Below are positions 13,045 to 16,907 of a stretch of DNA of 64,000 nucleotides, in pieces (the first letter of the stretch is position 1; every line of letters starts with the position of its first letter). Under the pieces are notes generated by a model. The model did no database searches, had not been told where the DNA came from, and saw only the letters and a list, made by a program, of their open reading frames with translations. Source of the DNA: an uncultured Eubacteriales bacterium (GTDB taxonomy: Bacteria > Bacillota > Clostridia > Oscillospirales > Oscillospiraceae); the NCBI GenBank assembly GCA_900317855.1, contig ONIG01000012.1:1-64000 (forward strand), given 5' to 3'. The translations under genes were made by a program, and so were the position numbers.

Positions 13045-14052
13045 ATGAAGTTCAACAAAATCGTGGCTCTGGCGCTCGCCCTCGTCATGGTGTTCGCGCT
13101 GTGCGCCTGCGGCGGCAGCACCGACACCAAGACCGACGACACCGGTTCCGCTTCCAAGGTCGACACCAACACCGTCTCCGTCGGCGCGGTCGTCATCGCG
13201 CGCGACGATGTTCCGACCGACGAGATCTATGCGTTCGTGTCCACCATCTTTGAAAATCTCGACGCCATCACCGCCCAGCACGCCAAGGGCGCGGAGCTGA
13301 GCATCGAGGCTGCCGCCTCCGTCAAGGGCGTGCCGTATCACCCCGGCGCTGCCAAGTACTTTGAGGAGAAGGGCGTCAAGGTCGACGCGGTCAAGGAAGG
13401 CGCCGGCAACGGCACCGCTTCCGCCCTCAGCTTCGGCACCGGCGGCGAGTCCGGCACGTACTACGCCTTCGGCGGCGTGCTCGCTTCCTTCGTCTCCGGC
13501 AAGTCCGACTGCAAGGTCACGGCCCTCACCTCCGGCGGCTCTCAGGCCAACGTCGAGGATCTGACCAACGGCAACGTCCAGCTCGCCTTCGTGCAGAGCG
13601 ACGTTATGAACTACGCTTACAACGGCCAGCGCCTGTTTGACAGCCCGGTCACCGGCTTCTCCGTCGTCGCCCAGCTGTATCAGGAGCAGGTTCAGATCGT
13701 CACCACCAACCCCGACATCAAGACCGTTGCCGACCTCGCCGGCAAGAAGGTTTCCATCGGTGCAGCCGGCTCCGGCGTGTACTTCAATGCCATTGACGTG
13801 CTCAACGCCTACGACCTCAAGGAGTCTGACATCTCCGCCGTGTACCAGAGCTTCGGCGACAGCGCCGAGAGCCTGAAGGACGGCAAGATCGATGCCGCGT
13901 TCATCGTCGCCGGTGCGCCCACCACGGCCATCACCGACCTCGCCACCGCCGGCAGTGTCTACCTCGTCAGCCTCGACGACAGCCACGTGCAGTCCCTGCT
14001 CGCGGCCTCCCCGTACTACACCGCCGCCACCATCAAGGCAGGCACCTATTGA
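13045..14052 (+). CDS. TAXI-family TRAP transporter solute-binding lipoprotein, circularly permuted
   Basis: A 335-residue lipoprotein: signal peptide with lipobox LCAC (Cys22). It is the solute receptor of a TRAP-TAXI importer, whose permease follows. The segment order is unusual. Residues 42-112 (VGAVVIARDDV, IYAFVSTIFENLD, YHPGAAKYFEEKG) correspond to what is normally the C-terminal end of TAXI proteins. The normal N-terminal part (SFGTGGESGTYYAFGG, about residues 129-144) comes after it. The middle part follows in usual order (QSDVMNYAYNG; GAAGSGVYFNAIDVL; VAGAPTTAITDLA). The protein then stops at ATIKAGTY, just where relatives run on into the VGAVVIARDDV segment. The order is therefore a circular permutation rather than a truncation. 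The ATG at 13045 has AAAAAGGAGAG upstream. Confidence 0.88.
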   Translation: MKFNKIVALALALVMVFALCACGGSTDTKTDDTGSASKVDTNTVSVGAVVIARDDVPTDEIYAFVSTIFENLDAITAQHAKGAELSIEAAASVKGVPYHPGAAKYFEEKGVKVDAVKEGAGNGTASALSFGTGGESGTYYAFGGVLASFVSGKSDCKVTALTSGGSQANVEDLTNGNVQLAFVQSDVMNYAYNGQRLFDSPVTGFSVVAQLYQEQVQIVTTNPDIKTVADLAGKKVSIGAAGSGVYFNAIDVLNAYDLKESDISAVYQSFGDSAESLKDGKIDAAFIVAGAPTTAITDLATAGSVYLVSLDDSHVQSLLAASPYYTAATIKAGTY

Positions 14053-14156: not shown

Positions 14157-16202
14157 ATGTCTGACACCAAGAAGGCCGCGGACGCCGCGGCAAACGCTTC
14201 GCTGCAGGAGGAAATGGATGCCGTCATGCGTAAGTATGACCGCGAATCCGCCACCCGCGTCTGGACGGGCAAGCCCAAGATCGTCATCTCCGTCGTCATG
14301 GCGCTGTTTTCGATCTACTGCATCTGGTCGACGCTGTTCAGCACCGCCGCGCTCGAGATCCGCCTGACCGCGTTCCTCGGGCTGATTGTCATCATGGGCT
14401 ACCTGACCTATCCCGCCAGCAAGAAGCATGTGCACGCCAACCGCCTGCCGTGGTACGATATCGTCATCATGGTCATCGGTGCGGCTGCATTTTTCTACTA
14501 TTGCTTTAACTACTCCGTGCTCATCAAGACGCTCACCAGCGCCGCCAAGATGACGCCGTTTCTCATCGCCGTCGGCGTGGCCGGCATCCTCGTGCTGGCA
14601 GAGCTGTGCCGCCGCTGCGTCGGTCTGCCCATCCTCGTGGTCGTCGGCGCGCTGCTCGTGTACACGTTCGTGAGCATGCTCAACGCCGGGCAGACGTTCC
14701 AGCAGGTGCTCGGCCGCGTGATCTACACGCTGTTTTTCGGCACGTCCGGCGTGCTGAGCACGCCCGTGCAGGTGTGTGCGAAGTTCATCGCCGTGTTCAT
14801 CATCTTCGGCGGCTTCCTCGAGCGCACCGGCATCGCCAGCTTCTTCATCGACGCGGCCAATGCCATCGCCGGCTGGACCTCCGGCGGCCCGGCCAAGGTC
14901 GCCGTCATCTCGTCCGCCCTGTGCGGCATGGTGTCCGGCTCCTCCGTGGGCAACACCGTCACCACCGGCTCGGTCACCATCCCGATGATGAAAAAGACCG
15001 GCTACAAGCCCGAGTTCGCCGGCGCCGTCGAGGCGGCCGCTTCCACCGGCGGCCAGATCATGCCCCCCATCATGGGCGCGGCCGCGTTCCTCATGGCCGA
15101 GTACATGGGCGTGACGTACGGCCAGGTCACCCTCTGGGCCATCCTGCCCGCCGTGCTGTATTTCGGCGGTATCTTCATCTCCGTGCATCTCGAGGCCAAG
15201 AAGCTCGGCCTCAAGGGCATCCCGCGCTCGGAGCTGCCCCGCTTCAAGTACCTCATCCGCAACGTCTATCTGCTGCTTCCGCTCGTGTTCCTGATCTGGA
15301 TGGTCACGGCGAACATCCGCTCGCTGCAGTTTTCCGCCGCGATCGCCATCCTGATCTCCATCGCCGTGAGCCTGGCCGGCACCATCCGCGACGCCTCGGC
15401 CGAGGTTAAAGAGACGAAGACCGGCAGCGTCGCCGGCATCACCGCCAAAAAGACCGGCCGCATGATCCTCGACTCGCTCGAGGCCGGCGGCAAGGGCAGC
15501 ATCACCGTCGCCGTGGCCTGCGCCATGGCCGGCATGATCGCGGGCTGCATCACCGTCACGGGCCTGGCGTCCAAGCTCATCAGCGGCGTCATCGCCATCA
15601 GCAGCGCCATCCCGAACCCGACGCTCTCGCTGCTGCTGGCGCTGTTCCTGACGATGCTGTGCTGCATCGTGCTCGGCATGGGCGTGCCCACGACCGCCAA
15701 CTACTGCATCATGGCCTCCACCTGCGCGCCGATCCTCATCACGCTCGGCATCCCGAAGGTCGCGGCCCACTTCTTCGTGTTCTACTTCGGCATCGTCGCC
15801 GATATCACGCCGCCGGTCGCGCTGGCCGCCTACGCCGGCTCGGCCATCGCCAAATCCAACCCGATGAAAACCGGCGTCAATGCCACAAAGCTCGCCATCG
15901 CGGCGTTCATCGTGCCGTATATGTTTGCGATGAACCCCTCCATGCTGCTCATGGATCAGGGGGTGCTCGCCGCCATCCAGGTCATCATCACGTCCTGCCT
16001 CGGCATCTTCGGCGTCGCCGCCGCGCTCGAGGGCTACGTCGTCACGCACGCGCCCTGGTGGCAGCGCATCCTGCTCGCCGCCGGCGGTCTGTGCCTGATT
16101 AACCCGAAACTGACCACCGACCTGATCGGCATCGTGGCCATCGCGCTCGTCATCGTGCTGCAGATCGTGCTGCGCAAGCGCAGCACACCCGCTGCCGCAT
16201 AA
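14157..16202 (+). CDS. TRAP transporter fused permease (DctQM type, TAXI family)
   Basis: A 681-residue polytopic membrane protein in which the small (4-TM) and large (about 12-TM) TRAP permease subunits are fused, the usual form in TAXI systems. The N-terminal 50 residues are hydrophilic. 'GCITVTGLASKLI' and 'CIVLGMGVPTTANYCIMAST' are typical of the large subunit, as is 'SGSSVGNTVTTGSVTIPMMK'. The transporter imports an organic solute with a Na+ or H+ gradient, using the receptor encoded just upstream. The ATG 14157 follows CGGAGG. TAXI substrates are poorly known (carboxylates or amino acids are suspected), so no substrate is assigned. Confidence 0.93.
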   Translation: MSDTKKAADAAANASLQEEMDAVMRKYDRESATRVWTGKPKIVISVVMALFSIYCIWSTLFSTAALEIRLTAFLGLIVIMGYLTYPASKKHVHANRLPWYDIVIMVIGAAAFFYYCFNYSVLIKTLTSAAKMTPFLIAVGVAGILVLAELCRRCVGLPILVVVGALLVYTFVSMLNAGQTFQQVLGRVIYTLFFGTSGVLSTPVQVCAKFIAVFIIFGGFLERTGIASFFIDAANAIAGWTSGGPAKVAVISSALCGMVSGSSVGNTVTTGSVTIPMMKKTGYKPEFAGAVEAAASTGGQIMPPIMGAAAFLMAEYMGVTYGQVTLWAILPAVLYFGGIFISVHLEAKKLGLKGIPRSELPRFKYLIRNVYLLLPLVFLIWMVTANIRSLQFSAAIAILISIAVSLAGTIRDASAEVKETKTGSVAGITAKKTGRMILDSLEAGGKGSITVAVACAMAGMIAGCITVTGLASKLISGVIAISSAIPNPTLSLLLALFLTMLCCIVLGMGVPTTANYCIMASTCAPILITLGIPKVAAHFFVFYFGIVADITPPVALAAYAGSAIAKSNPMKTGVNATKLAIAAFIVPYMFAMNPSMLLMDQGVLAAIQVIITSCLGIFGVAAALEGYVVTHAPWWQRILLAAGGLCLINPKLTTDLIGIVAIALVIVLQIVLRKRSTPAAA

Positions 16203-16349: not shown

Positions 16350-16907
16350 ATGGAACGAAGCATCCTGGCGCTCGTGCTGGCGCTGGCGCTCGCACTGGCG
16401 CTGGCCGCCTGCGGCCGCGGGGACGAGACCGCCGCGTCTGCCCAGCCGACGGCTGCGGCCGACAAGGCGGGGGACATCACCCTCTGCCCGACGTATGACA
16501 ACGGCAAGGGCGGGTATTTTTCCGTCACGCTGCCGGCCAGCTGGGGCGATAACTACCTGACCGAGTGCGGCGCGAACGACGGCGGCTATTACGTCAGCTT
16601 TTATGAAAAGACCGACCACGACAACGGTCTGGGCGGCTTTCTGTTCATGCTCGAGGTCTTTCCGACCGATTATGACTATACCGAGCTGCCGGAGTATCAG
16701 GCCATCTGCGGCCTGACCGTAGACGGCGCGAACTACAACCTCATCGCCGAGCTGCCGACGGACGTGCAGTTCGCCAATGAGAACGCCGACCTCTACCGCA
16801 GTATGTCCAACGACTTTTCGGCCATCCTCAAGAGCCTGACCTTCTCCAAGGGCGTCACGCGCACGGAGGTCATCGCGCCCGCGCAGGCGTCCGGCAGCGA
16901 GTCGTGA
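16350..16907 (+). CDS. Putative lipoprotein of unknown function
   Basis: A 185-residue exported protein. Residues 1-21 form a signal peptide rich in Ala/Leu repeats with lipobox LAAC (Cys21). A short Thr/Ala linker follows, then a globular domain beginning 'YFSVTLPASWGDNY', which resembles the opening of small exported Clostridial proteins that start with a 'y.s..lP..W' strand. No catalytic motif is evident, and I do not recognise a characterised family. It is monocistronic, with its own strong promoter and a terminator 20 bases downstream. The start ATG 16350 has GGAAAGGAG 8 bases upstream. Confidence 0.8.
   Translation: MERSILALVLALALALALAACGRGDETAASAQPTAAADKAGDITLCPTYDNGKGGYFSVTLPASWGDNYLTECGANDGGYYVSFYEKTDHDNGLGGFLFMLEVFPTDYDYTELPEYQAICGLTVDGANYNLIAELPTDVQFANENADLYRSMSNDFSAILKSLTFSKGVTRTEVIAPAQASGSES

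Follow-up and report, generated by a model that had tools for sequence, protein, structure and literature searches.

A TAXI receptor gene with its parts in exchanged order

We analysed a stretch of 64,000 nucleotides (hereafter the window) of contig ONIG01000012.1, assembly GCA_900317855.1, from an uncultured Eubacteriales gut bacterium of the Oscillospiraceae, in which an earlier note, made from the sequence alone, had described a solute-binding protein of the TAXI family whose usual C-terminal segment stands directly behind the signal peptide. The gene, at 13045..14052 on the + strand, is an open reading frame with a clean start and a single stop and translates into a protein of 335 amino acids (P0001) with matches among profiles and PDB chains. 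A signal peptide of the lipoprotein type, read from its sequence motif (residues 1-21; 13045..13107), ends in a lipobox-like LCAC with Cys22, the first residue of a low-complexity spacer (residues 22-38; 13108..13158) that lies largely within a stretch of poor model confidence (predicted local distance difference test score, pLDDT, below 50 at residues 17-34). The spacer is followed, on the same strand, by the moved segment (residues 39-112; 13159..13380), identified by alignments and model as the homologue of the C-terminal end in ordinary TAXI proteins, by a linker of the V-x-x-V-K-E-G-A-G type that connects the former C- and N-termini in the alignments (residues 113-127; 13381..13425), and by the TAXI core (residues 128-335; 13426..14049), which is delimited by profiles and PDB alignments and holds the mapped ligand-site positions.

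The exchange is apparent from comparison with solved structures. In a phmmer search against PDB chains, residues 127-335 matched residues 24-238 of 8u79 (i-Evalue 1.2e-27) and residues 39-111 matched its residues 243-316 (i-Evalue 3.5e-6), such that the larger part of the protein corresponds to the N-terminal three quarters of solved TAXI receptors and the smaller part to their extreme C-terminus. Two stretches exceeded the threshold in six of the seven chains matched, with 4ddd matching by a core stretch only, and the exchanged order is visible in all five alignments displayed (8u79, 1us4, 9oz4, 8s4j and 9ibo). The family profiles were likewise matched in two stretches each: TIGR02122 scored 260.6 bits (cut-off 84.35), its best stretch placing protein residues 124-335 on profile positions 28-244 of 320, and PF16868 scored 235.5 bits (cut-off 27), with residues 130-335 on positions 1-214 of 289. 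The core-then-tail order usual in solved TAXI members, which lies outside the profile cut-off rule, is absent from this protein, and we therefore class it as a permuted variant rather than an ordinary member of the family.

In ordinary relatives a short loop and then ...TVAVGAVV come after a conserved ...TY (alignment A2); the chain of the window protein ends with ...AGTY and has ...DTNTVSVGAVV after its signal peptide (alignment A1). Both parts are thus homologous to the parts of one ordinary protein, in exchanged order and with the old termini joined by a linker, as expected of a natural circular permutant, and chance is excluded both by the E-values and by the 35 of 80 genome loci (see below) that share this order. 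Separate alignment of the two parts to both ends of ordinary TAXI proteins bears out the proposal that the ends fit as in a normal member and that only the order is changed, rules out a mismatch of residues 42-112 with the TAXI C-terminal region, and places the proposed boundaries (residues 42-112 and 125-335, with the end at ATIKAGTY) correctly to within a few residues. The protein is very probably a permuted TAXI receptor, with a circular permutation that a clade of relatives has in common, with a predicted ordinary two-lobed fold, and would likely feed the adjacent TRAP permease.

This permease, which the earlier note had placed next to the gene, is a fused (QM-type) TRAP protein of 681 amino acids encoded 104 bases downstream (14157..16202, + strand), whose coding region at 14157-16199 scored 632.4 bits against TIGR02123 (cut-off 320.65).

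Occurrence of the permuted order

To see how related genomes order these segments, we took the best 80 of 495 loci confirmed for a permuted query and found 35 in tail-core order (L022-L056) and 45 in core-tail order (L057-L101). The record names of the permuted loci include Oscillospiraceae, Oscillibacter, Dysosmobacter, Lawsonibacter, Lachnospiraceae and Parasporobacterium, and in Oscillibacter sp. 1-3 the permuted locus lies on a 1.3 Mb supercontig. L009 and L022 share their coordinates and count as one record, and several ordinary pairs are identical. Compared with the ordinary loci, the window protein shares 64-71% identity in the core and 46-73% in the moved tail.

Because these 80 loci were picked by similarity to a permuted query, 35/80 is not a prevalence, and a better estimate comes from 300 genomes of the window's family, 119 of which had a match at 1e-20. 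In 17 of the 300 genomes, from 9 of 106 genera with the window's included, one match runs through the permuted order; the count includes the genome of the window itself and a match that ends at residue 300, with up to seven candidates scored per genome. For the remaining 102 genomes with a match, the order was assessed from the range of the match and checked only where a locus was given. Within the window's genus, 8 of 10 genomes had a match: the order is permuted in the window's genome and in G001 and ordinary in L010-L014, while G009 holds distant relatives only.

The permuted gene is the only TAXI match in the window's genome (1.96 Mb in 49 contigs, 97.4% complete). Seven weaker matches there resemble other lipoprotein-type binding proteins; in blastp comparisons with P0001 they have mainly the signal peptide in common, three of them also a short core stretch, and the tail segment was not found in any of the seven at better than E 3.9. 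Among five other permuted-gene genomes that were searched whole, the permuted gene was the only TAXI match at 1e-10 in four, and the fifth held one further, distant TAXI match (26% identity).

Eight of the permuted loci come from spirochaete bins (L026, L028, L036, L037, L042, L045, L050 and L051). Their genes nest among Bacillota genes, which suggests transfer between phyla or misbinning, and in these loci the permease start touches the stop of the permuted gene (spacing -1). Another permuted gene, L055:5453-6538, departs from the family close to its end as if frame-shifted and overlaps the permease frame, as an assembly slip or a decaying copy would. Beyond the permease in the window lies a small lipoprotein-like gene (16350-16904) with no family above cut-off; of the loci searched, many of which end before that distance, L022 alone held a relative of it (90% identity).

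A conserved linker and the origin of the permutation

The stretch between tail and core has a characteristic form, V-x-(A/S)-V-K-(E/D)-G-A-G-x-G. Of 198 permuted proteins, which include 162 database proteins retrieved with P0001 or P0020 (P0001 itself counted), 195 have this pattern, and of 80 ordinary ones none does. Among permuted loci examined in addition, L103 and L111 are one residue each off the pattern. In alignment A1, which holds 30 of the 37 permuted rows, V113, A120, G121 and G123 are invariant in all 30. In the genome loci the linker has a length of 16-18 residues, and a few database proteins fall below or above this range. Short tails such as DVATK or VPTK are the usual end of ordinary proteins, in which glycine/alanine-rich spacers precede the core. 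The linker resembles a fusion of tail and spacer, the product expected of a tandem duplication.

Phylogenies place the permutation in two operon lineages. In a tree of the core (86 rows), 35 permuted rows form one group (starred support 98/90) with L056 outside it; in the core tree with two distant rows, L056 falls inside an ordinary group (100/98; 97/88). The permease tree likewise unites 34 permuted rows (Shimodaira-Hasegawa-like approximate likelihood ratio test 99) with L056 elsewhere. Left out of the trees were L001, L016 and L017-L020 (repeats or fragments) as well as the apparently frame-shifted L055, which was kept in the permease tree only; L015 and L021 were also left out of the core tree and the C-segment tree. 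Further genes of the L056 lineage (lineage b, which includes the database protein P0188, recorded with 45 contigs) were not found with P0188 as query in 394 genomes of the order at 1e-70 or in 391 of the class at 1e-60, where up to five candidates per genome were scored.

We infer from the shared linker that a single junction spread by recombination, a reading that explains both tree placements as well as the linker itself. Linkers scored a median of 35.7 bits on a profile of main-clade linkers, whereas the best of 15,275 artificial joins of tail and spacer from ordinary proteins reached 17.6 bits, in a null that does not model selection for a fitting linker. On a profile built from the main clade only, the lineage-b linkers reached 37.4 (L056), 41.8 (P0188), 31.1 (P0221) and 41.8 bits (P0175); to score the L056 linker, which is one residue shorter, a padding residue was inserted where it fitted best.

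Several results weigh against a single junction. A clade of all 36 permuted rows is rejected in the core tree (approximately unbiased, AU, test, p 0.004), and a single permuted clade is rejected in the permease tree (AU p 2e-5, from a quick search with an incomplete L056 permease), so the two placements could mean two separate permutations. If the main clade and the L056/P0188 lineage were permuted independently, their linkers would have converged because the joined ends need such a sequence. This alternative gains from the position of the L056 core and permease inside ordinary-order groups, but it must account for lineage-b linkers of 31 to 42 bits where the best artificial join stays at 17.6, and the short C-segment tree does not reject one permuted clade at the 0.05 level (p 0.064), with too few columns to decide. 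We consider two independent origins rather unlikely, though a serious contender. One gene in ordinary order, L085:5791-6900, groups with the permuted genes by its tail (C-segment tree, weak support) though not by its core, and is a possible recombinant.

For the single junction, the starting event would be an in-frame tandem duplication (core-tail-core-tail), after which loss of the first core and the last tail would leave tail-linker-core behind the old signal peptide; recombination would then have carried the junction into a second lineage of TAXI operons. We tentatively propose that the junction is a transferable module, formed once by tandem duplication and truncation and recombined into the second lineage, of which tail-core-tail and core-tail-core proteins from metagenomes may be living exchange steps.

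Such mixed orders occur in a set of 232 proteins, made up of the window's protein and the top 120 from each of two partly overlapping searches that scored 8000 proteins apiece: 162 are tail-core, 27 core-tail, 33 tail-core-tail, 7 core-tail-core, 2 tail-core-core and 1 core-tail-core-tail. All 43 mixed forms except P0149 have a single contig each, the longest of 17,411 bases, and those inspected by eye seem to switch at words common to two genes, so many may be assembly chimeras; we accordingly did not use them as support for living duplication intermediates.

The tail-core-tail proteins (P0002, P0003, P0004, P0006, P0008, P0009, P0012, P0100, P0125-P0127 and others; 406-423 amino acids, one or two contigs each) could have arisen as chimeras between permuted and ordinary genes or could be genuine recombinants. 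In the core-tail-core proteins (P0020, P0078, P0085, P0092, P0118, P0123 and P0124; six of the seven with 553-601 amino acids) two cores would need to share one tail segment. P0122 (645 amino acids, 53 member sequences, one contig of 11,217 bases) holds a complete core-tail-core-tail tandem of near-identical copies in one frame; duplications like this can be forerunners of a permutation. The value of P0122 for our proposal is reduced on two counts: it is itself unpermuted and therefore attests only to the recorded existence of such duplications, and its sequence, too, may have been produced by assembly.

Predicted fold and anchoring

AlphaFold2 models of one permuted and one ordinary protein have helices and strands that match after rotation, in support of the ordinary TAXI fold predicted for the protein. 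The moved segment, modelled as one long strand and five helices, would take its usual place, and the ligand cleft, with its mapped residues all within 128-335, would stay intact. Foldseek and VIA-align follow sequence order, and VIA-align accordingly aligned only about residues 122-335 to TAXI chains. TAXI receptors head the 50 structural matches listed, among which the absence of other families excludes nothing, a Cluster B sugar-receptor fold included.

An alternative arrangement is a segment-swapped dimer, in which the core of one molecule would be completed by the N-terminal segment of its neighbour instead of its own. A linker of 16-18 residues might allow either form and single-chain prediction cannot tell them apart, and the TAXI protein BP0403 is dimeric, although through an added helical domain (PMC12344293). 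However, the single-chain model is highly confident through residues 41-130, and VcGluP is monomeric (PMC11574862), which leaves the swapped dimer improbable next to a permuted monomer.

The rotation also moves the membrane anchor. Whereas in ordinary lipoprotein relatives the lipid anchor adjoins the first core strand, in the window protein it would stand before the long strand of the moved segment, into which it would lead through a 16-residue spacer and which we read as a hinge strand. A lipobox pattern is present in 25/34 permuted proteins (26/34 with the LFAC of L056, which lies outside the pattern) and in 41/49 ordinary ones. The eight permuted proteins without a lipobox cysteine, which include six of the eight spirochaete proteins, speak against anchoring as the sole reason for the permutation, and as its driver we regard anchoring as weakened.

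Ligand site and selection

To examine the binding site, we mapped the ligand residues of VcGluP by hand through the 8s4j alignment. Y45, S75, Q93, E125 and G156 correspond to Y139, S166, Q184, E214 and G244 of the window protein, all invariant in the 30 aligned permuted proteins, and the permutation keeps them together, as every mapped position falls within the core. Loss of Y45 and Q93 cost VcGluP the most affinity (PMC11574862). The invariance of these residues points to glutamate or a similar small acid as the likely ligand. A different ligand may be indicated by the replacement of VcGluP Y200 and M201 (by I/V and V, respectively); Y200 is present in only 20% of the TAXI sequences of PMC11574862. 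A fused TRAP permease lies downstream in 34/37 permuted rows, the other three being L055, whose frame overlaps that of the permease (scored "up"), and L031 and L043 (scored "none"), both near a contig end.

Silent changes exceed amino-acid changes in the gene, with a ratio of non-synonymous to synonymous substitution rates (dN/dS) of about 0.09 between the window gene and L022. Counting against the main reading, the same comparison gives 0.30 for the moved segment, from few changes, against 0.04 for the core, and comparisons with L023, L025 and L027 give whole-gene values of 0.32 to 0.41 at large dS. In the latter three the moved segment is more constrained (0.18 to 0.21) and the signal peptide and spacer are higher. 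A decayed or non-functional paralogue that keeps its order by chance, a fate suggested by the frame-shift-like end of L055, is very improbable for the window gene given its dN/dS against L022, the invariant ligand-site residues, the adjacent permease and its standing as the only TAXI match in its genome, and we reject it on grounds of selection, conservation and single copy.

An assembly or binning artefact, conceivable in a 49-contig draft with mixed-order proteins on record among metagenome proteins, is scarcely credible for the window and rejected for the class, as the order and its conserved linker recur in 35/80 loci, Oscillibacter sp. 1-3 among them, and in 17/300 family genomes; the rearrangement that the earlier note had named as a possible refutation is thereby excluded.

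Relation to known receptors and significance

Re-ordered segments are familiar from other binding proteins: from the glycine-betaine receptors OpuAC and ProX, which the earlier note had named and which are ABC (ATP-binding cassette) receptors distant in sequence, and from the "domain dislocation" of periplasmic binding proteins. Among known systems the closest include the ordinary TAXI receptors VcGluP (8S4J/9IBO) and TtGluBP (1US4/8U79), which are homologous to the window protein along both parts. They share its predicted secondary-structure elements, the equivalents of Y45, S75, Q93 and E125 and a TRAP permease partner gene (PMC11574862). The window protein differs from them in that its parts are rotated, its termini and lipid anchor lie elsewhere, the linker is new and conserved, and the Y200 and M201 positions are changed.

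The nearest described parallel is TpMglB-2 (Tp0684), the glucose receptor of Treponema pallidum ("Type Ic / Cluster Bc"), a natural circular permutation of an anchored solute-binding protein with relatives in treponemes and Gram-positives, which retains ligand binding and conformational change and for which its authors propose a sub-class, with anchoring as a possible reason (PMC4990184). The two share natural permutation in a solute-binding protein, but TpMglB-2 is an ABC sugar receptor of another structural cluster, in which it was the first strands of one lobe that were relocated to the C-terminus and sequence similarity is poor (PMC4990184), whereas in the window protein the tail moved to the N-terminus and keeps 46-73% identity to that of the ordinary loci L057-L101. 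TAXI-GltS (BP0403) is another departure from the standard TAXI architecture, differing in that domains are added before a TAXI domain described as standard and that the partner is GltS rather than a TRAP permease (PMC12344293).

The earlier note knew of no natural permutation in TRAP-TAXI receptors, and among the matches listed from the open-licence literature searched for permutation with TAXI or TRAP terms we likewise found none described. The stem "permut" is absent from the TAXI papers PMC11574862 and PMC12344293, and PMC3454389 and PMC7683729, which combine permutation and TRAP terms, concern engineered sensors or cite such work and, in the passages checked, do not contain the word TAXI. 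Natural circular permutation would be new to the TAXI transporter class, and it would be a further case, after TpMglB-2, of permutation in a binding protein that is often anchored. Profile annotation can pass over such a change, with TIGR02122 and PF16868 both scoring the window protein well above their cut-offs. Since permuted and ordinary forms are still close (64-71% in the core), occur within one genus and adjoin the same kind of permease, the effect of moved termini on ligand binding, closure and hand-over to the permease is directly testable in this family.
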